From Rickettsiales bacterium (GTDB lineage: Bacteria; Pseudomonadota; Alphaproteobacteria; Rickettsiales; Deianiraeaceae), in assembly GCA_016735445.1 (NCBI GenBank), contig JAERRN010000017.1, positions 1-47,059 of the forward strand: a DNA stretch of 47,059 bases, in the 5' to 3' direction. Position 1 is the stretch's first letter. The number at the start of each line of letters is the position of its first letter. Below, in pieces: positions 1,924 to 46,358 of this stretch. The notes under the pieces were generated by a model. The model was not told where the DNA came from and ran no database searches. It saw only the letters and a program-made list of their open reading frames with translations. The position numbers and the translations under genes are program-made.

Positions 1924-4900
1924 TTAATCTTTTTTTTCAGCTTCAGAACCCCAGACGGACTGAGTGCCAGATTTTGCTCTTGGTCGCTGACGTGTGTTCG
2001 GTGCCTGACTGGTACCACCTTGACCAACGCCACCTTGACCAGCTTGACCAACTTGACCAGCTCCACCTTGACCAACGCCACCTCTTCCAATATTTTGACC
2101 ACCTTGACCAACTCCACCTCTTCCAATATTTTGACCACCTTGACCAACTCCACCTTGACCAGCTTGACCAACTTGACCACCTTGACCAGCTTGACCAACT
2201 TGACCACCTTGACCAACTCCACCTTGACCAACTTGACCACCTTGACCAGCTTGACCAACTTGACCAGCTTGACCAACTTGACCAACTTGACCAACGCCAG
2301 CTTGACCAGTGCCACCTCTTCCAATATTTTGACCACCTTGACCAACTTGACCTTGACCACCTTGACCACCTTGACCAGCTTGACCAACGCCAGCTTGACC
2401 AGTGCCTTGTGTAACACCTTGTATAATACCTTTAGCAACACCACCTTTTTCAGCACCTTTACTGCCGTCTTTTCCGCTATCTTGACCGCCGTCTTTACCA
2501 ATATCTTTAGCAACATGTGCAATACCTTTAGCGCCTTGACCACCACTTCCGCCACCTTTATCAGCTCCATCTTGACCACCTTGAGCGCCTTGAGCGGCGT
2601 TACCCCTTCTATCACCTTGAGAGGCGCTAGAGTTGCTTCTTTTAGGATTGCTTGTATCGGGTTTTGAATCTTTTTCTTCTGTAGCTTTTTTTCTTTTCAT
2701 CGATTTATCTATTGCTTTGTTAGCTAAGCGGTCTATTGTGCTTGCCGCTTTAGTTACTGGATACATTACGGCATCTTGTGCTTTACCAGCGGCAGATCTT
2801 TTTAAATTATCTATTGTTCCTGTTATATCTTTGAAAAAATCATCCAAACCTTGCCGTTCTCCAAATAGTGGTTTGGATATAAATTTATCCATTGTTTCAA
2901 TAATAATTAATAAAACAATTAGCTCTGATACGGTTGGAAATGATCCTGTTTGATTTATACTTGCTCCGGTAATGTTGTTAAAATATGGTCTTAATGTTGC
3001 AGGTATTGAGTTTGCTACTGACCACCATCCTAGCACTGACACGTTTACTATCGGTATTGTTATGATAGATATGTAGCATATTTTAAAGTATAAAATTGCC
3101 TCTACTATATTTAAATATAGTAACGTGAATAGTGCTAATGTCGAGAATAGATAAAATTGTGATATAGCAAAATTTAATAAACCTTTCCACCAGTTAGTAA
3201 AGTATTGTGCTGTTTTTGAATGTAATCTAAACATGAAAAACAAAGGTCCGATTGTCATATACATTCCTATCATAATTAAACATGATAGATATTGTATCAT
3301 TGATCTGGAGAATATCATTACATAACTAAAGAAGCTGTAAAGTATGAATATAACATATATAAAGCCGGTCATATCGCTAATTAACACAGCAAGTACCCTT
3401 AACCATGTTGTTGCCTTTAGAAAAACTTGATCAAAAATTATATCCACAGGTCCAAACATATTTTTGCCCTCAATATCTTTTGGGTCTATTGCTTGAACAA
3501 CAATAGAATTAATACCGTCAGTTATTTTTAGATAATTTTCCACTATATAGTGTTGGTACATGTCCCATGCTTCTAGGTTAAAAAATGCAAATGTAATTGC
3601 TATATTCATGCTTTCTTTTAATAGCGTTGACATGTCTATTTTTCCTTCTCCTAAGACTACATTATATCCCTTCACTGTTATTACTAATATCAGCACAATG
3701 TAAACAATTGATTGTAGATGAAAATTAGTTGCAAATGATGAGAAAGATTGATAAACAATACCACTTTTCCAATCTCTAGATTTATCACAGATTAATTTAG
3801 TTTCATACAATGGGTCGGCATTGTTAGCTGGTGTAGTGTTTGTGTTATTGTTTGATGCTGAAGAGTCAGATATATCAATATTATGGCATGCTTGAATTAC
3901 ATTACATGAGTAGTTATCTGCGGATCTACTTTCGTCACTTGAATGTCCAAGTTTGGGGCCATCTTTTTTTGGCCCAACAAAAACAATTTCGTCACTTTGG
4001 CTAATATTTGTATTTGGATCACATATTGTAATTTCTGATCCAGAAGATGGTATTGTTACTCCGTTAACAGAAGCACCTTTACAAGCGTTTAACAATTGTG
4101 CGTCGCAATATACCCTTTTTGAATCTGCAAATTGACAATTAAATCTGTTTGATGATGGGGAATCTATTTGTAGCGATGAGCCGTTTATAATTGGGTTATA
4201 ACATTTAGCGCATTCGTTAGTTGTTACTCTCTTGCATGTTATTTCTACACTTATGTTGTTGTTTGCATCTCTAGTGCTACAATCAACATATTCAACTTTA
4301 TCTAAGTATCTATTTGCATTACAACTTGAAATTGACCCTGTAACAGTTTTTGCAAGTGCATCTGTAATTGGATCTGGGTTATTGACGTCTTGTGACCCCG
4401 AACCACCGCCAACAGGTGGCGGTGGGCTATTAACATCTATATATGTGTTTACTATAGATATGGGGGCTTTAACATTTGTTAAGTTTTTTGGCCCTGCTAC
4501 GCAGTTTCTTTGTAAGTCACATGTTGACACACCCACTGTTACAGTACGGTCTCTTACGGTGTAAATTTCTTTACTAGGTTGGCAATTGCTAAAAATTTTA
4601 AATGGCTTTGGGTCATTTGGTGTACATGTTGGTGTTACTGAGCTATCTACTACATCATTGTCTAATATATGTTCGGATGGGTATTTAAAGCTGTTATTTT
4701 TTTCTTCTCGTTTCCAACATAATGTATTTGTATAAGGTTGTTTTAAACACGTTATTGTAGGGTTCTCATCCTTACCTGTTTTACCAACAGAATATGATAG
4801 ATCCAATGATTTTATACCGTAGTAGTTAAAATTAATCCATCCAGCAGTAACGTCTTCAAATGAATCAAGATTATGACCCGTTTTGTAAAACATTCTTAAA

Positions 4901-7900
4901 ATTTTAAATTTAAGGTAACCACCTTCTTTAAAAAATTCTATTTCTATAGCTTTTGTTAAGTTACCAGCAATTGTAGATAAAAACCATTTATTTGGGTCTT
5001 GCTTGCTTCGTTTTCTTCTTGCCCAACTACCTGTATTGCCAAATGAGTAACCAAAGTATATTGCTTTATCTATGTTAATTGACAGTAAATCAACTGTATC
5101 AGATGGTATGTTTGTATTGAATGGTACATTTCTAAACTGTAAGTTAACGTTGTCAAGAAGCTTCTTTTTTACACTGGTTTTATATGTTTCTTTTATCATT
5201 GTATAGATATTACACAGTTTTACTTTTTCCTGTGGTTTACAGGTAATATTACTGCCAGGTTGGCTAATGTCTGTTTCACACATTTCTTTACAATCACCGT
5301 ATATTTGTGGTTTGATAAAAACTTCTTTTCCTTCGTATACAATGTTACCATCTGAAAATATAAAACCAGCCTCACATTTATGCAACATTTGTTCTTTGTT
5401 AAGAAACTTAAAAAATATTTGCACTAAATCTTTCTCTATAGGGTCGTCGTATACTTTAACTAGTTTACAGTTACCTTGTGAATGCGAAGCATGATGTACT
5501 ACGTGTTTTATTGCACTAAGATTGACATCTGCACCTACGTATATAAAGTCACTGTATTGTGGATGAGCCTTTACCGCTTCGCTATACATCATGTCCATAC
5601 ATTCTGCTCTAGCTAATTCTGGAGTGTTAAATCTAAAATGAAAATCACTTGTTCCAATAGCGATATATTTATAAGTAGATAAACATAAAAACGGATTTAT
5701 GCAATGTTGGAGATCTATGCCAGATGTTTGTTGGTAATTTATTCTATCACTATCAGTGTAAGGTATTAATAGAATTTTATTTCTTGGGTCGACTCTATTA
5801 AAATTAATTGATGGATAACATTTGCTGTAATAATTTTTATATTCTGTTGACCCACTGTTGCTTAATAAGTTAATATCGTAACCTGAGTTGCTAGGGTACA
5901 TTAACCTATTTACCCATATTTTGTGACCATAACCCGTAAGTTGTAAAGTTGTTAACAATTTAGATCGTTTTTCTTTTTGCGATATAACTATAATTCTATT
6001 GCCGCTGTTTAGTCTTAAAAATTTCTTAGAGACAAGGTTGTTATATATACTTAACATACGGCTAGTGTTTCCTTTTTGAACATAAGCATGTAAAATTGGA
6101 CCTTCGTATCCGTATCTTTGAGTACAAAGTTTAATACTTTCATTTGAAAACAACGGATTGCTAGCGGTTATTGTTGTTGCAAAATCATTTGCATTTTTTG
6201 TTGATACAAATTTTTCTTCATGAAAAACAAACTTTCCTAGCTCTTCTTTTTTGTATGTACATGCGTAAAACGGTAGACCACCCGCATTGCCAGCTGTTGG
6301 ACCATTATTGTCTGTACATATTGTTATTCTTTTTTGTTCGTTTTCGTTTTTTCCAATTAAAATTTTAAATGGGGTTTTACGAGATATTTTCATTTTACAT
6401 GCTGTAACTATGTTGTTAGTACATGTAAAAACATTATTATTTCTCACGTGTGTACATACTGTTGTATTTGTTTTTGGGTCTCTTGGACCTAAAAAACTAC
6501 TACTTAGTAACTTCGTGGTTGTTTGTGCAGGATCGTACGTTGTTGCAAGTTGTACTTGTTCGCACTGTGCGCAAAGTTTATTATCTATTGGATTAAAAGG
6601 CAGATCTACCGTTGCCTTTATTAAATTATTTTCATTGCATTTTTCTCCTTGAAGATTATCTGCTGGAGTTCCGATATCTATGTCAATTTTATCATCGGAT
6701 GGGTTATTTTGCGATGGTTTGTCTGGCATTACAATAATTGTTTTACAATTATTAAGGTCATCCGTTGATTTGCCAAAAAATATTGTTTTAATTGTTTCGA
6801 CAAATGCTATATTAATAGCGTTTGATATCCACCCATTTGTACTAACACCAAGGTTATTATTTGGTGTTTTTGCTTTTGCTGCAACCCTGTAATATCCTGT
6901 ATTATAATATAGGATATTTGAGTTATCGCTATTTGTTTTTGGTGCGATATTTTCTTCTATATACGATGGATTGAATGTTAGTATTTTTCCATCTGTTTTA
7001 TATGTACTTTTTGGTGGCGTTGTGTCTAGTATGCCAATCCACACTTTTCCAGAATGATTTGGTAACCATTCTGCCATCCCGTCGGCAAATCCATCACTCA
7101 TATCTAACGCTAAGAAGTCTAGCACTGGTAAGTTAGGGTTATTTTTTATTTTACGCAGTATATCGTCGTGGTGCGTTAGCTCTCCAAATATTTTAGAGGG
7201 GTGCTTTTGTTTATCTAGATCTTGAGTATAAGAACCTTTTCCGTCTTTTTTAAATTCTTGTATATAAATAAATGCTCTCTCACCATTTTTTAATTGCTGC
7301 CCCGAAGATATTATTATATTTGTCGCTTTATTACCAATTACCTCTCTGTGGGTGGCTGTAGTTTTGTCAGGATCTAATATTTCATTTGCTCTTTTGTCAT
7401 CATGCGAGAACATTGTTTTTATATTGTTACCATTTCCTGCGTACCCTATTGCCATAGTGTATCTTTTGCCATCATCTGGCACTCTTATCACACTGTTAAT
7501 GTTTTGCCCATTGTTTGAGAATATCCCGCCGTAATATAGCTCGCCTATTTTTTTGCTATAAAGTAAGTTAGTTAATGATTTTATTTTGTTATTTGATAAT
7601 TGTTTACTTTCTGAGTCACTACATGAAGAACCTAATATATTTGTTTTGTATTTATACATGTATATATTATCGCTTTTTTTGTCGTAATATTCTATTTCCC
7701 AAACATGGTCTTTTGAATATTCACAGTCAGATCTATGTTTTATTTTTGACGATATTACGTTGTCACTAAAATCGCTATCTGTTTCTACAGTTCTTAAATT
7801 TGATGTTGGTTCTATTTGTAAATCTTTTTTAATACAAACACCGCAGTGTCTATTTTGAATATTTTCTCCATCATTAAATAATACCCCTGTATCAATTAAC

Positions 7901-9954
7901 GTATTTACCCTAGGTGAGTGCGATTGTTGATATGTTTGTGTGACTTCTCTACTGTTATGGTTTGTTCTATTTTTATCAGTTACTACTTTTACACAAGAGC
8001 CGATAGGTATTATTTCTGCATTATCGCTAGTATCTATTTTTATTGTGCTAATACATTTTTCTACAGGCACTCTAACGTTGTTACATCCAGATATATATTT
8101 TTTAAAACATCCAACAAAACTAACTGGTTTAATAGCGTACGCCATTGCTGTTGAGCAATTTCTAAAGCCAACTATTTTTGAATATATTTCTGCCATTTGC
8201 GTACCAAAGGTCCACATAATTTTGCTACATTTATTTTGGTGACTTTCGTCATATTTTGCAACAGATTGTGCTGTTTCGTCTTTAATATTAAAATTAATAG
8301 TACTTCCATTTTCTAACAATACTGGGAAAGCTTTCCATTCTGATGACACTGCTGTTGACGAGTCCATTGCCAGATTGTACGTCTTTCCTGAGGTTGTCAT
8401 TTTTATCTGACATCTGTTTAAATCTCTAGTGTTATCACTTGTTGCAAGTGTTATATTTGCTTCTATAAATTGTAATGGCCAAGAAAGTTTAATATTGCTG
8501 TGGTTTGGGCATATTTTTGTTTTTATTTTTCTACTTTTAATCGGTGAGGTAAATTCTCTACAAACAGGTATATTGTTTTCACTTTCGTCACAAGTTACTT
8601 TTGGGTAATCGTAGCTTGTAGCCCAATAAACTTGTGAGTCTGATAGAACATAATTATAATAACCACCATATAGTCCGCCAAACTCTGTTATGTTATATTT
8701 GTCATCTATTTGCTTGCATGTGGTTCCTTGTGGGGTAAAATACCACCTTGAAACTGGTCCTAAATTGTACATTGTTGCTATTTGTGGTTTTGGATCATCT
8801 CGTGGGGTCATGTTTGTGGCCCAGTTTGGTAATTGATGATTATGCGTGCATAGTGCAAACTCTGGTAGGTTTGACCATGGCATGCTAAGAATAGAATTGC
8901 AACGTCTCAGGTAATCAATTGGAATGTTGCGTCTTCTTTTGTTTGTTGTTCCTGATGTAATGTTAACACCTTTGCAATAGCTATGTAGTCCATAAGCTTC
9001 TTTTACCTGATCTTTAGTTCTGGATCTTTTTATATAAAATGGGAATCTTAGAAGTTCTCTAGCGTTGTTAACGCACTGCGTTGCTTCATGTCCGGAAATC
9101 GCAAATTTATTACCGCAGGCCCCATATGCAAATACATTACCAGAACACCAAGCGTTTCTAGCGTCTGGCATACAGCTAATGTCATCTTTTATTTGATCGG
9201 TACAGCCGCTAATGTTGTCTCCTCGGCACTCATTTTTAAAAGGTGTTCCTGTATGGCATGACCATTTCTCGTTGTCCCCATAGCGACCTAGCGATGTATT
9301 GTATGTTGGTATTAAAACCGCATAAATACCTAGACAATTGTTTAATTTAATACCGCCAGCGTACTCACTTTCCTCTTCTTTGCCAGGGATATATTTTGGA
9401 TTTGGTATTGCGCCAATAACAGGTGTTTTATCTTGCTGCTCCATTATACATGATATCCGCATTTCTGATCCAGGTACTGTAAAAATTGGAGAAGGAATTA
9501 ATTCTGATGTATAAATGGTTTCAGAGGTTCCGCTGCTATCTATATACGAGATAGGTTTTATTTTAAACGGCACTTTTTGGGTAATTGTGTACCCAGCTAA
9601 GTTTACCTGACCTTTTATTGTCATTGAAACTCTAAAGCCTTGGTATATCATAAAATCTTTTTTTGGACCGTTATCGTCTTTTTGAGAGTTTGGCTCATCT
9701 TCGTTGTACTCTATGGCATACCAAGGAAATCGCATTTCTTCCTCTGTTTTGTTTGGCTTTGGAATTGCCAATATATTGTCATCTATATCGACATTAAGTT
9801 CGTTTAATGGCCATATTTTTTTTATGATAGATTTTATTTCACTTCCGTCATCGCCAGGGTCGTAACATCCTGCACCACTGCAAGAGCCAAGCAGTAAACA
9901 AATTACAACTAAACTTACTGTAAAATTTGAGCTTGAATTAGCTTTTTTACTCAT
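1924..9954 (-). CDS. Giant VirB6/TrbL-type type IV secretion protein, predicted lipoprotein, Gly-Gln-rich repeat C-terminus
   Basis: 2676 aa; N-terminal signal with lipobox LLLGSC; large Cys-rich ectodomain; multi-TM block near the C-terminus (IVYIVLILVITVKGYNVVLGEGKIDMSTLLKESMNIAITFAFF... FIYVIFILYSFFSYVMIFSRSMIQYLSCLIMIGMYMTIGPLFFMFRLHSKTAQYFTNWWKGLLNFAISQFYLF) typical of VirB6 paralogs in Rickettsiales; hydrophilic repeat tail. Confidence 0.85.
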   Translation of the reverse strand: MSKKANSSSNFTVSLVVICLLLGSCSGAGCYDPGDDGSEIKSIIKKIWPLNELNVDIDDNILAIPKPNKTEEEMRFPWYAIEYNEDEPNSQKDDNGPKKDFMIYQGFRVSMTIKGQVNLAGYTITQKVPFKIKPISYIDSSGTSETIYTSELIPSPIFTVPGSEMRISCIMEQQDKTPVIGAIPNPKYIPGKEEESEYAGGIKLNNCLGIYAVLIPTYNTSLGRYGDNEKWSCHTGTPFKNECRGDNISGCTDQIKDDISCMPDARNAWCSGNVFAYGACGNKFAISGHEATQCVNNARELLRFPFYIKRSRTKDQVKEAYGLHSYCKGVNITSGTTNKRRRNIPIDYLRRCNSILSMPWSNLPEFALCTHNHQLPNWATNMTPRDDPKPQIATMYNLGPVSRWYFTPQGTTCKQIDDKYNITEFGGLYGGYYNYVLSDSQVYWATSYDYPKVTCDESENNIPVCREFTSPIKSRKIKTKICPNHSNIKLSWPLQFIEANITLATSDNTRDLNRCQIKMTTSGKTYNLAMDSSTAVSSEWKAFPVLLENGSTINFNIKDETAQSVAKYDESHQNKCSKIMWTFGTQMAEIYSKIVGFRNCSTAMAYAIKPVSFVGCFKKYISGCNNVRVPVEKCISTIKIDTSDNAEIIPIGSCVKVVTDKNRTNHNSREVTQTYQQSHSPRVNTLIDTGVLFNDGENIQNRHCGVCIKKDLQIEPTSNLRTVETDSDFSDNVISSKIKHRSDCEYSKDHVWEIEYYDKKSDNIYMYKYKTNILGSSCSDSESKQLSNNKIKSLTNLLYSKKIGELYYGGIFSNNGQNINSVIRVPDDGKRYTMAIGYAGNGNNIKTMFSHDDKRANEILDPDKTTATHREVIGNKATNIIISSGQQLKNGERAFIYIQEFKKDGKGSYTQDLDKQKHPSKIFGELTHHDDILRKIKNNPNLPVLDFLALDMSDGFADGMAEWLPNHSGKVWIGILDTTPPKSTYKTDGKILTFNPSYIEENIAPKTNSDNSNILYYNTGYYRVAAKAKTPNNNLGVSTNGWISNAINIAFVETIKTIFFGKSTDDLNNCKTIIVMPDKPSQNNPSDDKIDIDIGTPADNLQGEKCNENNLIKATVDLPFNPIDNKLCAQCEQVQLATTYDPAQTTTKLLSSSFLGPRDPKTNTTVCTHVRNNNVFTCTNNIVTACKMKISRKTPFKILIGKNENEQKRITICTDNNGPTAGNAGGLPFYACTYKKEELGKFVFHEEKFVSTKNANDFATTITASNPLFSNESIKLCTQRYGYEGPILHAYVQKGNTSRMLSIYNNLVSKKFLRLNSGNRIIVISQKEKRSKLLTTLQLTGYGHKIWVNRLMYPSNSGYDINLLSNSGSTEYKNYYSKCYPSINFNRVDPRNKILLIPYTDSDRINYQQTSGIDLQHCINPFLCLSTYKYIAIGTSDFHFRFNTPELARAECMDMMYSEAVKAHPQYSDFIYVGADVNLSAIKHVVHHASHSQGNCKLVKVYDDPIEKDLVQIFFKFLNKEQMLHKCEAGFIFSDGNIVYEGKEVFIKPQIYGDCKEMCETDISQPGSNITCKPQEKVKLCNIYTMIKETYKTSVKKKLLDNVNLQFRNVPFNTNIPSDTVDLLSINIDKAIYFGYSFGNTGSWARRKRSKQDPNKWFLSTIAGNLTKAIEIEFFKEGGYLKFKILRMFYKTGHNLDSFEDVTAGWINFNYYGIKSLDLSYSVGKTGKDENPTITCLKQPYTNTLCWKREEKNNSFKYPSEHILDNDVVDSSVTPTCTPNDPKPFKIFSNCQPSKEIYTVRDRTVTVGVSTCDLQRNCVAGPKNLTNVKAPISIVNTYIDVNSPPPPVGGGSGSQDVNNPDPITDALAKTVTGSISSCNANRYLDKVEYVDCSTRDANNNISVEITCKRVTTNECAKCYNPIINGSSLQIDSPSSNRFNCQFADSKRVYCDAQLLNACKGASVNGVTIPSSGSEITICDPNTNISQSDEIVFVGPKKDGPKLGHSSDESRSADNYSCNVIQACHNIDISDSSASNNNTNTTPANNADPLYETKLICDKSRDWKSGIVYQSFSSFATNFHLQSIVYIVLILVITVKGYNVVLGEGKIDMSTLLKESMNIAITFAFFNLEAWDMYQHYIVENYLKITDGINSIVVQAIDPKDIEGKNMFGPVDIIFDQVFLKATTWLRVLAVLISDMTGFIYVIFILYSFFSYVMIFSRSMIQYLSCLIMIGMYMTIGPLFFMFRLHSKTAQYFTNWWKGLLNFAISQFYLFSTLALFTLLYLNIVEAILYFKICYISIITIPIVNVSVLGWWSVANSIPATLRPYFNNITGASINQTGSFPTVSELIVLLIIIETMDKFISKPLFGERQGLDDFFKDITGTIDNLKRSAAGKAQDAVMYPVTKAASTIDRLANKAIDKSMKRKKATEEKDSKPDTSNPKRSNSSASQGDRRGNAAQGAQGGQDGADKGGGSGGQGAKGIAHVAKDIGKDGGQDSGKDGSKGAEKGGVAKGIIQGVTQGTGQAGVGQAGQGGQGGQGQVGQGGQNIGRGGTGQAGVGQVGQVGQAGQVGQAGQGGQVGQGGVGQGGQVGQAGQGGQVGQAGQGGVGQGGQNIGRGGVGQGGQNIGRGGVGQGGAGQVGQAGQGGVGQGGTSQAPNTRQRPRAKSGTQSVWGSEAEKKD
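2012..2405 (-). repeat. Low-complexity array encoding (G-Q-x)n with interspersed GQGGQNIGRGGV units
   Basis: Many copies of 9-nt units ttgaccaac/ttgaccagc/ttgaccacc; longer unit ccacctcttccaatattttgaccacc occurs three times. Confidence 0.95.
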
Positions 9955-30992: not shown

Positions 30993-31529
30993 ATGTTGCT
31001 TGACAATATTAAAAAAGTATACCAAAAGCCACTTGTTTTTTTGGCTGTTGTTAATTTTACAACCATTATTGGTATTTTAGGTGCAAACCTTGCAACTTTT
31101 TTTGGATACGAGCCATGCATGTTATGCCATATACAGCGGTTTATTTCTTTCAGTATAGCAATTTTAAGCTCTTTAACTTTTGTTATGTACGGTATAACTG
31201 GTAACAAAAAACAAGTATCCTTTTTTGCAGTTTTTATTTGTTATAATGCAATTGTTTCTCATTTGTTTGCTTGGTACCAATTGCTTGTCGAAAAAGGCAC
31301 AATTCCGTTACCGTCAGTATGCCGGTATGGCAATTTAAACAGTATTGTAGGTATAAGTGTGCAAGATTTACTACAAAAAAAAGTTGCCGCTCCATGTAAT
31401 AAACCAGAATACATAATGGGCTTTTCTATTGCAGAAATAGCACTAATAGGGACTGGCTTGGTTTCTATATTAGCGGTTTTATTTTTATTTAACTATGGCA
31501 AAGATAGATTAAACAGAATTAAGAATTAA
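30993..31529 (+). CDS. dsbB: Disulfide bond formation protein DsbB
   Basis: Four TM, EPCMLCHIQR first Cys pair; second periplasmic loop Cys pair (VCRYG ... APCNKP). Confidence 0.88.
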   Translation: MLLDNIKKVYQKPLVFLAVVNFTTIIGILGANLATFFGYEPCMLCHIQRFISFSIAILSSLTFVMYGITGNKKQVSFFAVFICYNAIVSHLFAWYQLLVEKGTIPLPSVCRYGNLNSIVGISVQDLLQKKVAAPCNKPEYIMGFSIAEIALIGTGLVSILAVLFLFNYGKDRLNRIKN

Positions 31530-35280: not shown

Positions 35281-35976
35281 ATGCTACATAAATTGTATAA
35301 AATCTCTATTTCCTTTCTTGTTACTATATTAGTGTTAGCTTTTCTCACTAAAGGCTGGTCAATTATTTGTACTAAAATTGCAATTAAGCTGTATTACGGC
35401 TCTAGATCTTCTTGGGACAGAATTTATATTTTGTCAGATATGAACATGAATAACGCTATAGCCGAATTTATTGCAGATTTAGCGTATCATGTTGTTGACG
35501 AACCAACCTCTATTATTTACTTAACACCGCAAGAATGTATTTTAAATAAATGCAGACCAGATTTAATTTTATCCCAAGAGGTTTCTTTTTTTGTAGGGAA
35601 TAGTTCAAATTACCAAACTGGCAAGTTTAGCTCTTCAGTTATAGACTATGTTAATTTGGCAGATTATTCTATAGACAGTAGCGAGGGGATTATTGGATTA
35701 AACATATGGGGTGATAGAATTTTATTTGGTATACCTAAAAAACCACCTCATAAATTATTTGCGCCTATGATGGTTCGTTATATTGTAGAAGATGAGCTTT
35801 TTAAAAAAACATTGATGATACAAGATAGAGTTAGACAAATGGAAAAAGCAAAAACATTTAGAAGTAAGAAGGTAAAATCTATGCGCAACAAAGCGGTAGA
35901 GCATTATAATTTTGCCAGATTTAAAGATAATGCAAAAATTAATCAGCATTATTCGTTTAAACCTAACAATAAATAG
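35281..35976 (+). CDS. Hypothetical membrane-anchored protein, likely operon partner of the downstream giant ORF
   Basis: 231 aa, one N-terminal TM, stop 25 nt before the next ORF on the same strand. Confidence 0.6.
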   Translation: MLHKLYKISISFLVTILVLAFLTKGWSIICTKIAIKLYYGSRSSWDRIYILSDMNMNNAIAEFIADLAYHVVDEPTSIIYLTPQECILNKCRPDLILSQEVSFFVGNSSNYQTGKFSSSVIDYVNLADYSIDSSEGIIGLNIWGDRILFGIPKKPPHKLFAPMMVRYIVEDELFKKTLMIQDRVRQMEKAKTFRSKKVKSMRNKAVEHYNFARFKDNAKINQHYSFKPNNK

Positions 35977-36001: not shown

Positions 36002-39000
36002 ATGCAAAAAAGAGAACAAAAGTTATTATATAAATATAACGGCTGTTGTTATGTTTATTCTGCTTTCATTGCCTTTTCATCGTTTATTTTTATATTTTTT
36101 GGTTGCGTTTTTGCTGCTGAAACATTTGATCAGTCTGTAATAGCTGGGTGTACTCTTAAAACTTTACAAAACGAAGACGTAGTACAGATTTGTGAAGGTA
36201 CAGACATACCTCAGGTGGTTTTTAATAATAAGTCTGGTGGCTCTGCGTTTCCTAATGCCAAACGTGGCGCTATTACTGGCGCTTCTATGGTTGGCGATGG
36301 TATGGTTTGGGTACAAAACGCTACCCAGTTAGATGGTAGAGAAACGTTAGAAATTTGCGAGTCAAAAAGCACAGTGCTTGGCGTTATTGAGCAATGTAAA
36401 CGCTTCAATGTTGGCCACAATAGCATTACTTTGTCTGATGGTTTATCTATTGAAGTTGCAAAATTGAGGTTAAATTTGCTATCCGATAGTTCTTCATCGT
36501 ACAACGGACGTACGATAAAAAAAGGTGTTCATTCTAATGGTTATACATTTGTTTTAATGGGAGATGACTGCCCATATGAATCTGCTTCAAATGCGGTAAA
36601 TGGCGTTTGCAGTGTTTCTTCTGGTATAAAAAGTGGCTTTACAAGAGATAATAACTGTTATTTAAAAAAAGATTATATTTCTATGTCTTGCGGGTTGGAG
36701 ATAGAGTGCCCATGTGACAACAGTAATTATAAATGCGATAATAATTTTAACCCTACAGGTGACAACCCTTTTAAAGACGATGAAAATATTAAAACTTGTT
36801 ATCAGTGTTTTGCAAACGTAAGAAAGGCGTTAAAAAATTGCATTGCAGCCACAGCTGTAGACAGCAGTTTACTTAAAGCTTATAATGCTACTAATTTTTT
36901 AATTAGATCAAAACTTACTAGTAGCTATGGTGAGGGTACTTATTTGTGCGCTTTTGCTATAGTAGGTAAAAAAAACGCTAAGAGACTTGGCTGTTCTAAA
37001 TTTATACCTGGCTTAGGCCCTAGACCTTACCCTAGAATTGCAAAAGCAGACGATATGATGAATCTGCAAATGTACCCTGCTGCTCATTTGTTTTTAATTT
37101 ATCCCTTCGTTAAAAGTTTTAGAGATAACGATGAAAAACCTTCTATTTGCAGTGATGGGAAAGCGGAACTTGGAGAAAGCGAGAGAGGAACATTTTTTAG
37201 ACCTAAAATAAAAATACTTCTTTCTGACACTTTACGTGTTATTACTTTTAACCCAGATGTTAGAGCGGACATGAATGTCGTTTACGGTTCGACAAAGTAT
37301 AACGCTAATGGAAAAATGGTTTCTGGTTGGAATGAAAATATTCCATTAAGAATGGAATCTTCAGAATTAGATAAATCAACATGTACATATATTAATACTG
37401 GTTACAATACATATGTCTGCACTCGTCTTGAATACGATGATTCAAATGGTCGATCTGTATACGCCGCATATCATGTACCATCTTTAACAGGACAGACTTC
37501 CGTTAGTGAGACTTGTTTATCTTTAGGTAGCAGAAATGCCTTAGTTTTTTTAGGCTCTACTGATAGACCACCTTTAAAATACTCATTAGATAACAATGGC
37601 GCACCTTTGTTGCCAGTTTATATTAAATTAATTAACCCCCAAGACTCGGATAAAAGATATCCAGTTAGTGTTACGTTTGATCCTAAGCTTGTGTATTCTG
37701 ATATTGCCGGTTACCATGATGACATACCTGTCGTAAGTGTAAATCTTACACCATCCAGATACGAACCATTATCGGAAACTATTGTAGAAGGAGAGAGATG
37801 TACTATGTTGTTTAATTATAAAATTTGCATAGAAGAAGATAAATGTAATGCTTTAGATTACATAGATGAAAGGGTAAAGAATAAAGCTGATTTGTCATCA
37901 TGCGATACTGCTTTTTGCAGAATATATAAATCTTTATATATACCATGTGAAAGGAGGACGTATTGCAATAGAGATTATCAGACCGTTGCCAAGTGTCAGC
38001 AAAATTTTCATTATGCAAATTTACTAAAATTAGACGAGTCATTTAGCGGTTATACGGTTCAAGATCAATGGACTCCTTCTGTATGCCTTACTATGGATAC
38101 GGTGCCTATTCTTAACGCGGACACACAAAGACTGTATGGATTTTATGGGGATCCTGGTGTTGAAGTTGGCGTTGAAATGGTTGACCAAAGAACTGGTCGC
38201 AGTGGTAAGTTGTTAAAAACATTTGAAATGGACAATGTGTTAATTCATAACAATATATTACCAGTGCATAGTTCTTATTTTGAGAAAGGTGAATTGGGTG
38301 GTGTTGTGAATCAAATTAAAACTACAGAGTACGAATACGGTGACTCTGTCGCTGTTGCACATTTTGGCGCTAGTTGCGATGATAACTGTTTACAAAACAG
38401 CATTAGGGTTAGGCGCCGCAATATGAGAGAGCTTGGTGGATGTATAAATTTTAATCCAGCTAGTGACGCTTCTTCTTTGGTTGAGTCTTGGGATCCTATA
38501 TCTCAGTCTGGTACAATGTCTGTAAATACCACTGTTACAGATATTTATATCCCACTTGCTTGCAGGTATTTGGATTTACAGTTTCAAGGTCCTGGTGGTG
38601 GCGCGAGCTCACCAAGTAAAGGCTCTACTATTGCGTATCAAAACGATGGTTACGCCGTGTCTAGCGGGTCAACTGGTGGACACGGTACTCTTGTTTTTGA
38701 CTCTATGAGTCAGGAAGGAAATGATTTTTTAAGGATAGTTAGAGGAAATTCTGGCAATAATTATGGCTCTACAAATGCCTTTGGCGCTGTTTGTAGAAAC
38801 TGGGTTATTAGCAGTGGTGGTTATTCAATTCAAAACTGGGACTACAATGCCATTGGCATATTAACAGCGACACAGGAGATAGCGTATGCGTATGGTGGCG
38901 TTGGTAATGTTGATATGGGTTCTGTGTGTGGTATATATGACAGAGTTTGGATACCCTACGGTACTGCAACTCATAACGAAAATTATTTCTTTAAAGGGTC

Positions 39001-42000
39001 GTACTTAAATGCTAGCGATTTGTTTAAAAAGATGGGTTCGTTTAACGGTAAAAGCACTATTGCTGGTAAACAGGGTACAAGAGAGTACGGTATGAACAAC
39101 ATGTTTGGTAATCGGAATTTGTTTGGTTATTCTGGCATTACTAATACAAAATGTCGCAGAAAAGCTCTTGGGATTTGCTGGAGTAGGAGTTGGTCTATAA
39201 CACCTGGTGGCCCTAGTGGTGCGATAATAAATCCGTCTAGGGTTAGAAAAAATGGCAGCATTATTACTTTGGACGCAAATTCACCTAGAGATCCTGAATG
39301 CATATCAATGTGTCCTAGAATGAACATAAAAATGATGTTAAAAAGCAAAGATGTTGTTTGCGAATATGGTGCATCTCGTGTCTCAAATTTAGGTATACCT
39401 TTCGATGTTAAAAAGTACGATAATCAAGTTCCAGCTGGAGGATATGGGATTCCTAGTTATTGCACAGATAAAGATGGGATTGTTTACATATCGAGCTCTG
39501 ATATGAGTATACAAAAATGTCCAAATGGTAAAGTAATGTATACTGGTAACGATCGTTTGTATAGTTTATGTGTTGATACTAATTCACAAAGTAATGCTTT
39601 AAAAACAATTTTATCTTCTGATGCAACAGAAATGGCTGGTGCGGGTATATATTGTAATCCGCAGGACAAAGATTGTAGCGCCACCAGATATTGGGACGCA
39701 AAAAAAAGTAGAGGAATTGTGCTAGAATCATCTTTGTCTAGTTTAAGTAAGTTTGGTCGTAAGTGCTTAGCTCACGGGATGTGGGCTACTAAAACAGGTC
39801 CAAATTCTAATGTTCCCATACAGGTGTTATCAAAAGCATCTTACCAAGTTATAAAGCCATATTTATATAGCAGAGATGTTAACCCTGGCGACGTAACCGC
39901 TGGTATTACTACTTTTCAACCAAATTCTCTACCTATATCGAATATTAGCGAAAAAGACCCAATTATTGTACGAGATGACGGTATTGTGCCAAGCGATCCT
40001 GCCGATTCTGGCTCAGGCAATTTATTAGATGATCTACTTGCTCCAGGAGGTGATGAGATGTTTAACTCTTTTTCCGCTGATTGCCCATATGTTGGTGGCA
40101 CGCCTAGCAATTGTCCGTCTGGCACTCTTAAAGACGGCGTTAACATAGGTAATAACTGTATATTATTTAAGGAGTCATTAATTGCAGAAGAGGGATGTCA
40201 ATTAGAAGATAAATGTTTATGTAATTTTGACGGTATTATTTGTGATAGTGATTATTTACCAATTACCAGTTCTTCTCGAATTCCAGATACCTTAAGAGGT
40301 GATACAAAAAATACCCATATTTCTTCAAATATATCTTTTGATAAAATCGATTTTTTATCTGCAGAGGCTAATGGTTCATCTATGATGACGCAATATCCTT
40401 GGAGTGTTGTGACAAAAGATAACGTTAATAAACGTTTTATACTTGCTCTCAACGACACTATTCATACTAAAGCTATCGATGTGTTTTTTTTCGTTCCTTC
40501 CTATGCTAATCAGTTTTGGCATGTTACCGTTGATAACGGTAGATACCGTGATGACAGTAGTGGTCTTTTTACATACGTTCCCCCGTACGGAAACGATAAA
40601 GGTTTTGTGTTAAATTTACTTGCTGAGTATGGTTTTAAAAATGCAATTATTCAAAGCGATAATGGTTTAATGATTCCACAGGAAAAAATAAATTGTTTTA
40701 ACTGTCTTTCTCGTATAAGAAGGGTGTTTGACAAATGCATGAATAAAGCTAATGAAGCTGCGATGAATCCTATTACAAATCCTTCAGAAGGTAATGTAAA
40801 TTCATCTATTGTACCGTATGGTTCTGCTCGTGGTTTAAGTATTAATAATTTTATTAACCAATCTTTTGGCACAGAAATAGAATTTAAATGTCCTGCCATT
40901 AATCCCGAAAATGTACCATTTGAAAGTATGTATTCTTTAAATGCCATTTGGCCAGAATCTGTTTCTGGTTCGCAGGTGGGTATGTTACGCTGTATGGCGG
41001 GTTTTGTACCAAATGTTAACGCTTCTTTAATGCGTCGTTTTTGCTCTTTTCTAGGTACTTGGAAAGGGGTATCTGTTAGCGGTGATAAGCCATGTTTATA
41101 TACTTGTGAAGAGACAGAGGATTCAGCGAATGCAATCAGGTGGGAAAGTCCGGTAAATTATTCAAACCCAATTAGCTTACCAATGTGTATGCCTGCAAAA
41201 GCATTAATATACGTTGGTGGCGTTCAAAAAGTTGTTGAAGTTGCAACTAGGTTACCAAATGGCGTAAACCCGTCAACATGGGCACGAGTTTGCCATATGC
41301 CTGCCGCACAAGATCCGGTTAAATATTCTTCAGTTAGTCAATTAAACCCAATGGGTAAAATGCCTTATTGGGGCGCACAGCCTTCAGGTTCAAAGTGCGT
41401 TCCGACATCCTTTCTTGGCGAATGCCGTGTTGATAGAAATTTATGCTACGACTCTGCAAACGACGGAGAGGACGCTGTTGGTTATTGCTCTGATGAGACA
41501 GAGTATGTAGTAAATTCAATTTCTACTAGCCCACCTACACCAACAATACAAAATGGCGTTCCTACCGATTACAACGCAAAGGATGTGTATATTTTTGCTA
41601 ACAATATAACAATGGAATGTATATTTGACAAAACGACAGCTTCAAGTTCGGATATAAGGGGATATTTGCCATTTTCTAGTTTTAGCACAACTGTTAACCC
41701 AAATACAGTTTTAGTTTGCACTACTTCTGTAAGAAAATCTTTCTTAGCTTCTTTTCCTAACGACTCTGACTACGGTATGTTCTATGAGTTTTCTGAAAAC
41801 AATACACCCGTAAGAGACCTTAGCGCTTTTAGCGCACAGTTAGCCTTAGATTTGGAAACAAAGGTTAAAAATGATATTGCGATTAAGGGTGAAAATTGCT
41901 TATTTCCTGAAAGCAATCCTGATTATGATAGACTTTCTTCTATTATGAGCGCGTACGCGTTATGTAGTTCTGTTTGTTTTGATGTGTCTACTTCTAGATT

Positions 42001-43393
42001 TGTTAAGTATTCTTGTGAGGATAAGATTCCAGAGTCACAAAATGTTTCTAGATGTTTACAGTTGTGCTCTACAGATGAAAAGGAAGTTTACTTCTCTTAT
42101 GAATTAGGTATTACTTTTAATCATATTCCTGCGGGTTATAACATATGGAACATATCCTCTTCCAACACATCGCGTTGCGTTGGTAAAGCAATTCCTGTTG
42201 CTGTAAACAACTTACGCTCTTCTGATCCAAGTTATTCTTTAAGAGCGGGTCATTATTGCGATAAAGTATTTTTCTCTGTTACCGGTAATATAGAAAATGG
42301 AGTATTAAAATTACCAGCAAGTAATGCTATTTTTAATGGTGAGTTTGATGTAAATAAAAGAGGTTGTACAAAACCTAACAATTGCACATTGCCAAATGGA
42401 ACAGTGATTAACCATCGTGACACCATATGGATTGCCGTCGCAGATAGTTTATCATTTACCGATGATCAGTATCGTTTTCGCAATAGCGTTGTCGATGTCG
42501 GTTCAGTTTCTCCTGGGTATTCAATGTACGATATCACGGGTGATAATTTATTTGTAATACAAATTGGATGTGTCGATAGGGAGTTTTTTCTACTTGATAC
42601 AACAGGTAGTATAAGTTACTCAACAAGAACTGTACCTGTTGTATCACCTATTAGTATTGAGCAACAAGTAAGATATGGTTTATTAGCTAGTGAATCTAAG
42701 TTTAGCCAGCGGCAAATATGGAATTTTAGCGTTTTTGTTAACAGTATGCCGATCGACTCAACAACTCCAATGTCTTATTATTTGTCTATGGCAAGGTTAT
42801 ATAAAAGGAACGAAGGAGAGCAAACGGGAGATATATTAAATGATGAATTTGGTCGATCTAAAACTTTTGCTAATCCGCCACCAGCTCGTTCTAAGCAAAT
42901 TAGCGATTATATGACTATCAGGAATAATGCAGAAATGGCAGCAGTTTTTCCTAATCTTGATATGGGTAAATTAGTAAATATGCACAATGATTCATATTTA
43001 CACATTACTCTTGATGAGTTAAATATTTTGAGCGAAATATATGGTTTTGCTATTTGGAAAAATATTGGTAGCGATGTTTATAATTTAGAATTTATAGAAG
43101 AGAATCTTGAAATTTTTCAAAGAAACTCTATAGGCGATATAGTCCAAATTAGCATTGGGGATGAAAGTTTTAAAAATCTTAATTCTATACTTGATTTTGA
43201 CCAGACTAATACAAATTTAGGCAATGTTTTGCGTAGTAGATGGGTTTTAATGTGTAGTCCTAGGTTGAGAAACTGTGTTATAAAAAGTTTACTTACTGGT
43301 TACTATATTGACGATGCAATTAACAATGATACAAGAGTTAACGTTGAAACTGACGACATTAGTCGCGCCGCTAAGTTTGTTTTGTCAAACTAA
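36002..43393 (+). CDS. Giant secreted Cys-rich protein (2463 aa), unknown function
   Basis: N-terminal signal-like segment (YSAFIAFSSFIFIFFGCVFAAE); Cys-rich throughout; duplicated module near aa 189 and aa 1360; Gly-rich segment; no obvious C-terminal TM. Confidence 0.8.
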   Translation: MQKREQKLLYKYNGCCYVYSAFIAFSSFIFIFFGCVFAAETFDQSVIAGCTLKTLQNEDVVQICEGTDIPQVVFNNKSGGSAFPNAKRGAITGASMVGDGMVWVQNATQLDGRETLEICESKSTVLGVIEQCKRFNVGHNSITLSDGLSIEVAKLRLNLLSDSSSSYNGRTIKKGVHSNGYTFVLMGDDCPYESASNAVNGVCSVSSGIKSGFTRDNNCYLKKDYISMSCGLEIECPCDNSNYKCDNNFNPTGDNPFKDDENIKTCYQCFANVRKALKNCIAATAVDSSLLKAYNATNFLIRSKLTSSYGEGTYLCAFAIVGKKNAKRLGCSKFIPGLGPRPYPRIAKADDMMNLQMYPAAHLFLIYPFVKSFRDNDEKPSICSDGKAELGESERGTFFRPKIKILLSDTLRVITFNPDVRADMNVVYGSTKYNANGKMVSGWNENIPLRMESSELDKSTCTYINTGYNTYVCTRLEYDDSNGRSVYAAYHVPSLTGQTSVSETCLSLGSRNALVFLGSTDRPPLKYSLDNNGAPLLPVYIKLINPQDSDKRYPVSVTFDPKLVYSDIAGYHDDIPVVSVNLTPSRYEPLSETIVEGERCTMLFNYKICIEEDKCNALDYIDERVKNKADLSSCDTAFCRIYKSLYIPCERRTYCNRDYQTVAKCQQNFHYANLLKLDESFSGYTVQDQWTPSVCLTMDTVPILNADTQRLYGFYGDPGVEVGVEMVDQRTGRSGKLLKTFEMDNVLIHNNILPVHSSYFEKGELGGVVNQIKTTEYEYGDSVAVAHFGASCDDNCLQNSIRVRRRNMRELGGCINFNPASDASSLVESWDPISQSGTMSVNTTVTDIYIPLACRYLDLQFQGPGGGASSPSKGSTIAYQNDGYAVSSGSTGGHGTLVFDSMSQEGNDFLRIVRGNSGNNYGSTNAFGAVCRNWVISSGGYSIQNWDYNAIGILTATQEIAYAYGGVGNVDMGSVCGIYDRVWIPYGTATHNENYFFKGSYLNASDLFKKMGSFNGKSTIAGKQGTREYGMNNMFGNRNLFGYSGITNTKCRRKALGICWSRSWSITPGGPSGAIINPSRVRKNGSIITLDANSPRDPECISMCPRMNIKMMLKSKDVVCEYGASRVSNLGIPFDVKKYDNQVPAGGYGIPSYCTDKDGIVYISSSDMSIQKCPNGKVMYTGNDRLYSLCVDTNSQSNALKTILSSDATEMAGAGIYCNPQDKDCSATRYWDAKKSRGIVLESSLSSLSKFGRKCLAHGMWATKTGPNSNVPIQVLSKASYQVIKPYLYSRDVNPGDVTAGITTFQPNSLPISNISEKDPIIVRDDGIVPSDPADSGSGNLLDDLLAPGGDEMFNSFSADCPYVGGTPSNCPSGTLKDGVNIGNNCILFKESLIAEEGCQLEDKCLCNFDGIICDSDYLPITSSSRIPDTLRGDTKNTHISSNISFDKIDFLSAEANGSSMMTQYPWSVVTKDNVNKRFILALNDTIHTKAIDVFFFVPSYANQFWHVTVDNGRYRDDSSGLFTYVPPYGNDKGFVLNLLAEYGFKNAIIQSDNGLMIPQEKINCFNCLSRIRRVFDKCMNKANEAAMNPITNPSEGNVNSSIVPYGSARGLSINNFINQSFGTEIEFKCPAINPENVPFESMYSLNAIWPESVSGSQVGMLRCMAGFVPNVNASLMRRFCSFLGTWKGVSVSGDKPCLYTCEETEDSANAIRWESPVNYSNPISLPMCMPAKALIYVGGVQKVVEVATRLPNGVNPSTWARVCHMPAAQDPVKYSSVSQLNPMGKMPYWGAQPSGSKCVPTSFLGECRVDRNLCYDSANDGEDAVGYCSDETEYVVNSISTSPPTPTIQNGVPTDYNAKDVYIFANNITMECIFDKTTASSSDIRGYLPFSSFSTTVNPNTVLVCTTSVRKSFLASFPNDSDYGMFYEFSENNTPVRDLSAFSAQLALDLETKVKNDIAIKGENCLFPESNPDYDRLSSIMSAYALCSSVCFDVSTSRFVKYSCEDKIPESQNVSRCLQLCSTDEKEVYFSYELGITFNHIPAGYNIWNISSSNTSRCVGKAIPVAVNNLRSSDPSYSLRAGHYCDKVFFSVTGNIENGVLKLPASNAIFNGEFDVNKRGCTKPNNCTLPNGTVINHRDTIWIAVADSLSFTDDQYRFRNSVVDVGSVSPGYSMYDITGDNLFVIQIGCVDREFFLLDTTGSISYSTRTVPVVSPISIEQQVRYGLLASESKFSQRQIWNFSVFVNSMPIDSTTPMSYYLSMARLYKRNEGEQTGDILNDEFGRSKTFANPPPARSKQISDYMTIRNNAEMAAVFPNLDMGKLVNMHNDSYLHITLDELNILSEIYGFAIWKNIGSDVYNLEFIEENLEIFQRNSIGDIVQISIGDESFKNLNSILDFDQTNTNLGNVLRSRWVLMCSPRLRNCVIKSLLTGYYIDDAINNDTRVNVETDDISRAAKFVLSN

Positions 43394-45800: not shown

Positions 45801-46358
45801 ATGTTGTTTTTTATGAAAAAAAGTATTTCCAAGTTTTTTTCAGTCCTATTTTTATTATGTATTGTTTGCGATTCTTCCGCATATGCAGCAGCTCATTTAT
45901 CTACATGTACTCCTCCTGGCACAGGTGGCTCCTCTGGTAATGGTTCTGGTTTAGATGGTAGCGATTGTGATGCTGGTTACTTATGCGATCGTAGCATGAA
46001 AGTTTGTATAAGCTCATTTGAGGTTCCTTGTAGGGCTAAAGGTTGTTCTGTTGGTACTATTTGCGTAGATTTAAGCGGCGATAGAGTATCTGGCGTTACT
46101 ATTGGTGTTTGCCAAGTGGACGGTGGTTCTTCCACAGAGGACAACGCTATAAGCGATATTTTATGTAACCTTTACAAATTTATCACTGGTAAAACTGGTA
46201 GGATTGTTATTGGTATTATATTTGTTGGCGCTGGTGGTACGTTTTTACTTGGTAAAATGCAATTGGGTACCGTTATTGCTATTGCATTAGGTTGTGGCTG
46301 TATATTTGGAGCTTCTGCTATTGTTAATGTGTTTGTTGGTCGTGGTTTTGCTTGTTAG
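45801..46358 (+). CDS. VirB2-like pilin with Cys-rich N-terminal extension
   Basis: Signal peptide; 8-Cys segment; C-terminal NAISDILCNLYKFITGKTGRIVIGIIFVGAGGTFLLGKMQLGTVIAIALGCGCIFGASAIVNVF matches the two-helix TrbC/VirB2 pattern. Confidence 0.75.
   Translation: MLFFMKKSISKFFSVLFLLCIVCDSSAYAAAHLSTCTPPGTGGSSGNGSGLDGSDCDAGYLCDRSMKVCISSFEVPCRAKGCSVGTICVDLSGDRVSGVTIGVCQVDGGSSTEDNAISDILCNLYKFITGKTGRIVIGIIFVGAGGTFLLGKMQLGTVIAIALGCGCIFGASAIVNVFVGRGFAC

Follow-up and report, generated by a model that had tools for sequence, protein, structure and literature searches.

The window, which is the whole stretch of 47,059 nucleotides analysed here, contains a single open frame of 2463 aa at 36002-43393 (+), located between the CTP synthase and ThrS genes, both of which lie on the opposite strand. 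The encoded protein, which we call the giant, contains 85 Cys (3.45%), and nine further homologs are present in the same GTDB family. A hydropathy scan found a hydrophobic stretch at its N-terminus (aa 14-42) and predicted no further transmembrane segment. This sole hydrophobic segment marks a putative signal peptide of about aa 1-39 (36002-36118, +), with the cleavage site, between ...FFGCVFA and AETF, placed by reading the sequence. By reading of their translations, the N-termini of the homologs are hydrophobic and Sec-like, and no second transmembrane segment was predicted in the five proteins scanned. An earlier note on this DNA had described the product as secreted and Cys-rich, a description that the Sec-type signal peptide-like N-terminus and the Cys content support.

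Immediately ahead of the gene lies a 231-aa ORF (35281-35976, +), whose N-terminus has a hydrophobic stretch and which ends 25 bp upstream. It is possibly co-transcribed with the giant's gene, and it is not a conserved neighbour of the homologs in other species. There, the genes flanking the homologs are mostly housekeeping genes that differ from genus to genus, with a few that recur: a DNA_pol_A_exo1 exonuclease, methionine synthase and MurJ. No neighbour is conserved beyond close relatives, and an operon or mobile-element context was rejected because conservation is confined to these relatives. The housekeeping neighbours speak for a stand-alone chromosomal gene over mobile-element cargo, and a search of a plasmid collection returned no match to the protein.

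Within the GTDB family to which the window belongs, profile searches of 18 genomes detected a homolog in 10, distributed over five of the family's seven genera and present once per genome. Such searches, extended to 330 further genomes of the order and to a class sample of 386 genomes, detected none outside the family. Most of the searched genomes are incomplete, so absence from any single genome is weak evidence. The family comprises small-genome bacteria and includes a one-contig genome of 1,205,153 bases; extracellular Rickettsiales are the topic of two papers (PMC9352585, PMC10847448), and the family may be Deianiraeaceae. With contig-end cases excluded, the homologs range from 1882 to 3335 aa. 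The gene is split over two contigs in genome G011 and starts at a contig end in G012; the other ORFs are whole, with lengths of 1882-3190 aa.

The homologs are built of conserved blocks separated by insertions that vary greatly. The conserved N-terminal core (aa 89-880; 36266-38641, +) holds about 20 Cys that show little or no variation across 10 species; they lie within aa 119-854, and 9 or more of the 10 homologs share them. The core also carries the motifs YGxGxYxC, GPRxxPRIA, RGTFFxPKI and RPPLKY, and it encloses the first copy of a Cys module (aa 173-283; 36518-36850, +) that was found in all 10 homologs. A Gly-rich middle region (aa 845-1089; 38534-39268, +) varies in length, with insertions that differ between homologs. 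It is followed by a second conserved Cys block (aa 1096-1271; 39287-39814, +) with the pattern C...CPRI...CEY...C...C...LC...C...G.W, in which eight Cys, all within aa 1100-1255, are conserved among the nine homologs covering that stretch. Towards the other end, a Cys-rich C-terminal region (aa 1710-2225; 41129-42676, +) contains further conserved Cys and is conserved with orthologs of genus g7, conservation with the others being weak or nil. The Cys-poor C-terminal tail (aa 2226-2463; 42677-43390, +) does not align to the closest homologs.

The earlier note had recognised no family, which remains true of the whole protein: Pfam, NCBIfam and PDB contain no relative, and the full 2463-aa sequence gave no Pfam match at E≤1 and no match to a solved structure. 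For the N-terminal core, there was no convincing match to any Pfam or NCBIfam model or PDB sequence. Two AlphaFold runs on this core yielded mean pLDDT values of 38.5 and 57.6, too poor to use, and Foldseek with these poor models found no match. The middle Cys block, together with a possible second sushi-like unit, had no match in PDB. A cytidylate-kinase match of homolog P0003 (E 0.0011, in one of ten members) is weak and was taken as chance, and a search did not support assigning the Gly-rich region to a Pfam Gly-rich domain. The G007 homolog (L014 5018-14590, -) has large insertions in its middle region; an insertion of this homolog, YIESSGTQYIDTG...IGLYDTIGKTFYTNKGTGNF, looks like the lectin-type modules that bacterial surface proteins carry, a likeness for which neither Pfam nor PDB provided support. 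Judged by its sequence, the putatively exported, disulfide-rich giant is a member of a previously unlisted family that is confined to one bacterial family.

A resemblance to known domains did emerge at aa 1622-1709 (40865-41128, +), a segment with Cys at positions 1630, 1664, 1681, 1698 and 1702. A profile of this segment, compared with all PDB sequences, produced 22 matches, the best with an E-value of 1.6e-4 that adds up several stretches of one chain. All but one of these matches fall to complement-control (sushi) or class-B GPCR hormone-receptor domains, in chains of complement C2, factor B, CD46, CD55 or CRF receptor; the remaining one was to GAPDH. When fragments covering aa 1622-1840 were searched, the Pfam HRM model matched weakly in 3 of 7 members (E 0.0066-0.04), and fragments trimmed to about 80 residues improved the best E-value to 4.6e-4. 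HRM was the sole match among 24,736 Pfam models; the window's own sequence had no match to it. Reversed segment sequences matched nothing in PDB or Pfam. The segment shares with sushi/CCP domains and HRM (PF02793) the distances between its four Cys (32-35, 15-25 and 13-17 residues) and the RxC...GxW motif; this pattern is accompanied by a specific resemblance to the sushi/HRM fold class. Unlike those domains, it has an extra Cys four residues past the fourth and is set in a bacterial protein of more than 2000 aa. In the three longer fragments, the scores of 14.7-17.3 bits stay under the curated Pfam cut-off of 26.2, so we describe a resemblance and do not claim formal membership. What the profile comparisons point to at aa 1622-1709 is a resemblance to sushi/HRM domains with a specific control, short of formal membership.

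Where the segment is found in genomes of the family, it is a single stretch within the giant's gene, the match of G011 lying on its second contig. A weak second stretch resembling it was seen in G012. Genera g3 and g5 gave no match to the domain, and it is therefore not the universal active part of the family. The segment may have originated by convergence or by transfer from a eukaryote, two origins that are indistinguishable here. In animals, domains of the sushi/HRM type serve extracellular protein-protein contact, and by analogy the presence of such a domain near the C-terminus suggests a function in contact with other cells.

Our best explanation, which we regard as evenly poised, is that the giant may be a single-copy, disulfide-braced surface protein for cell-cell contact. 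It would pass through Sec into the periplasm, where oxidation would make it a rigid chain of small Cys modules braced by disulfides. It would then be carried to the cell surface, its predicted place of display, where exposed modules, among them the HRM/sushi-like domain and the insertions that vary by lineage, would bind a partner cell. Variable insertions between conserved blocks are what is expected of exposed surface loops. A gene for the disulfide oxidase DsbB is present in the window (30993-31529). In genus g2, five of seven genomes encode the giant and DsbB (PF02600) was found in none of the seven, and it is present in g4 and g6, genera without the giant; its co-occurrence was therefore set aside as uninformative. 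Given its absence from the g2 searches, the oxidation step may use another disulfide oxidase. The giant has no matched barrel domain and no C-terminal transmembrane anchor, and autotransporter or two-partner (FhaB-like) domains gave no Pfam match at E≤1 in the 10 homologs, a search that distant barrels could escape. Of the extracellular adhesin guessed at earlier, export and a contact role are supported or plausible.

A different reading, in which the giant acts with a type IV secretion system (T4SS), is possible but on balance rather unlikely. In the five genera with the giant, VirB6 is 2028-3458 aa long and has 50-89 Cys (proteins read whole; VirB6 of G010 is split over contigs), and in the two genera without the giant, g4 and g6, it is 661-903 aa long with 7 Cys (three proteins read). 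VirB2-like genes are present in 18 of 18 family genomes, with 7.6% Cys in the one at 45801-46358 of the window, and surface exposure of the extended VirB6 of Anaplasma phagocytophilum (PMC7648143) also fits a partnership. However, g4 and g6, which lack both the giant and a large VirB6, cluster with each other in the ThrS tree (90/93), and a single event may therefore lie behind the co-occurrence. Outside the family, G129 encodes a 3172-aa VirB6 with 61 Cys and has no detected homolog of the giant, and T4SS genes are not conserved in the giant's gene neighbourhood. Comparison of the giant with the VirB6 extension by hhalign returned a probability of 0.3%, and with no detectable similarity a homology of the two was rejected. 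Like the extended VirB6 proteins of Rickettsiales, the giant is large, Cys-rich and, by prediction, extracytoplasmic, and it is found in the same genomes. Unlike them (TrbL, PF04610), it has one hydrophobic segment, no polytopic TrbL core and no sequence similarity, including no Pfam match to PF04610. The T4SS link of the giant, as in the earlier proposal of a T4SS mating/attachment factor, is only circumstantial, consisting of a genus-level co-occurrence with giant Cys-rich VirB6.

The suggestion of a TraN-like role, made in the same proposal, fared less well. PF06986, the model for F-type T4SS TraN, had no match in the window's genome at E≤1, with an E. coli control positive, and none in any of the 10 homologs, and TraN membership was rejected on these grounds. 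The giant is like F-type TraN in being Cys-rich and, by prediction, exported, with a contact role proposed. F TraN has about 600 aa, and the giant is several times longer. It also differs in its surroundings: no tra or mating-pair-formation cluster is found around the giant, whose neighbours are ThrS, CTP synthase and the 231-aa ORF.

The T4SS genes themselves present several features. The window carries a VirB6 homolog at 1924-9954 (-) of 2676 aa with 70 Cys, in which a TrbL core (aa 2089-2279) comes after a Cys-rich N-terminal region of about 2000 aa and a long Gly/Gln-rich repeat lies at the C-terminus. Beyond ThrS, the VirB2-like gene at 45801-46358 (+) encodes 185 aa with 14 Cys, including a Cys-rich N-terminal extension of about 110 aa; most genomes of the family have several VirB2-like genes. 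The short VirB6 loci of g4 and g6 are L128 628-3339, L129 454-2904 and L130 1319-3304. In another family of the order, the 3172-aa VirB6 with 61 Cys at L133 3139-12657 (-) adjoins further large multi-spanning ORFs (1312, 936 and at least 801 aa), which are probably more VirB6 paralogs. VirB6 is carried by 127 of the 132 genomes of the order sample, mostly in several copies, and in this respect the order behaves like Rickettsiales.

That the giant is a disulfide-linked coat protein, S-layer-like or an outer envelope scaffold, which protects the cell and has no specific receptor, seems to us clearly unlikely. Other bacteria with an obligate host association, Chlamydia for one, have Cys-rich coat proteins, which offer a precedent for such a coat; the giant, for its part, is very large, disulfide-rich and encoded once per genome. 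Yet its conserved Cys and short motifs (PRIA, RGTFF, RPPLKY) are unlike regular lattice repeats, and the sushi/HRM-like domain suggests specific binding.

The giant had also been described as made of two related halves, with copies of a Cys motif near aa 189 and 1360, about 1170 aa apart. DCPY motifs are indeed located at both positions, with a spacing of about 1171 aa, and CYQC...C at aa 266-280 has a counterpart in CFNC...C near aa 1565-1579. Aligned to each other, the first and second halves of the protein gave a BLASTP E-value of 0.001 over 67 aa, a self-similarity limited to the Cys module, and copy 2 aligned at E 2e-7 to the part of the G006 ortholog that holds its first copy. An HMM of the first copy, built from nine other species only and thus independent of the window protein, scored 28.7 bits at aa 1353-1425 (part A; 40058-40276, +) and 6.7 bits at aa 1560-1582 (part B; 40679-40747, +) on the stretch that holds copy 2, for which the maximum among 2000 shuffles was 8.2 bits. 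Part B is weak by itself, being below the best shuffle, and counts only through its position after part A. Whole-genome searches with family profiles also recover copy 2 (E 6e-7 and 1.6e-7). The similarity of the two copies, with a repeat unit of about 75 + 23 residues, exceeds chance. Within the window protein they share 24% identity and are no closer to each other than to the copies of other genera, so the date of the copying cannot be read from them.

The repeat of the Cys module is thus real, but the halves are otherwise unrelated, since a comparison between the profiles of aa 1-1090 and aa 1090-2463 found no similarity besides it. In the G006 and G010 orthologs, the BLAST block that stops near aa 1271-1286 of the window protein is followed almost without a gap by the one that starts at aa 1614-1625, so the roughly 335 aa between these positions, including copy 2, are an insertion relative to these orthologs. 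This insertion (aa 1281-1614; 39842-40843, +) is missing from orthologs P0002 and P0003, and the second Cys module is absent from the nine other homologs. The origin proposed in the earlier note, by ancient duplication or fusion of half-length proteins, would account for a module found twice about half the length apart, but it is almost certainly wrong and was rejected, because copy 2 occurs in the window species only and inside an insertion, the ortholog alignments lack it, the halves have no profile similarity to each other, and no half-length homologs were found. That the spacing of about 1171 aa comes close to half the length is an accident of the insertion site. The Cys module is a building block with a second occurrence in a variable stretch of this lineage, and the giant is not a fused dimer.

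The reading that we prefer remains that of a surface protein for cell-cell contact. In a bolder version, the bacterial family would have taken up, or converged on, a hormone-receptor/complement-type domain on a giant disulfide-braced surface protein, which together with the giant Cys-rich VirB6 would serve a lineage of ectosymbionts or predators as a device for recognising the host; this version is speculative and we consider it improbable. If the lineage lives outside hosts, like some relatives of intracellular pathogens, it would need a hold on its host, and the proteins by which such bacteria hold their hosts are largely unknown. A giant, disulfide-rich, predicted-exported protein, restricted to one family and encoded in 10 of its 18 genomes, is a concrete candidate for such attachment. 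Its animal-like domain of the sushi/HRM type makes the idea of binding directly testable.
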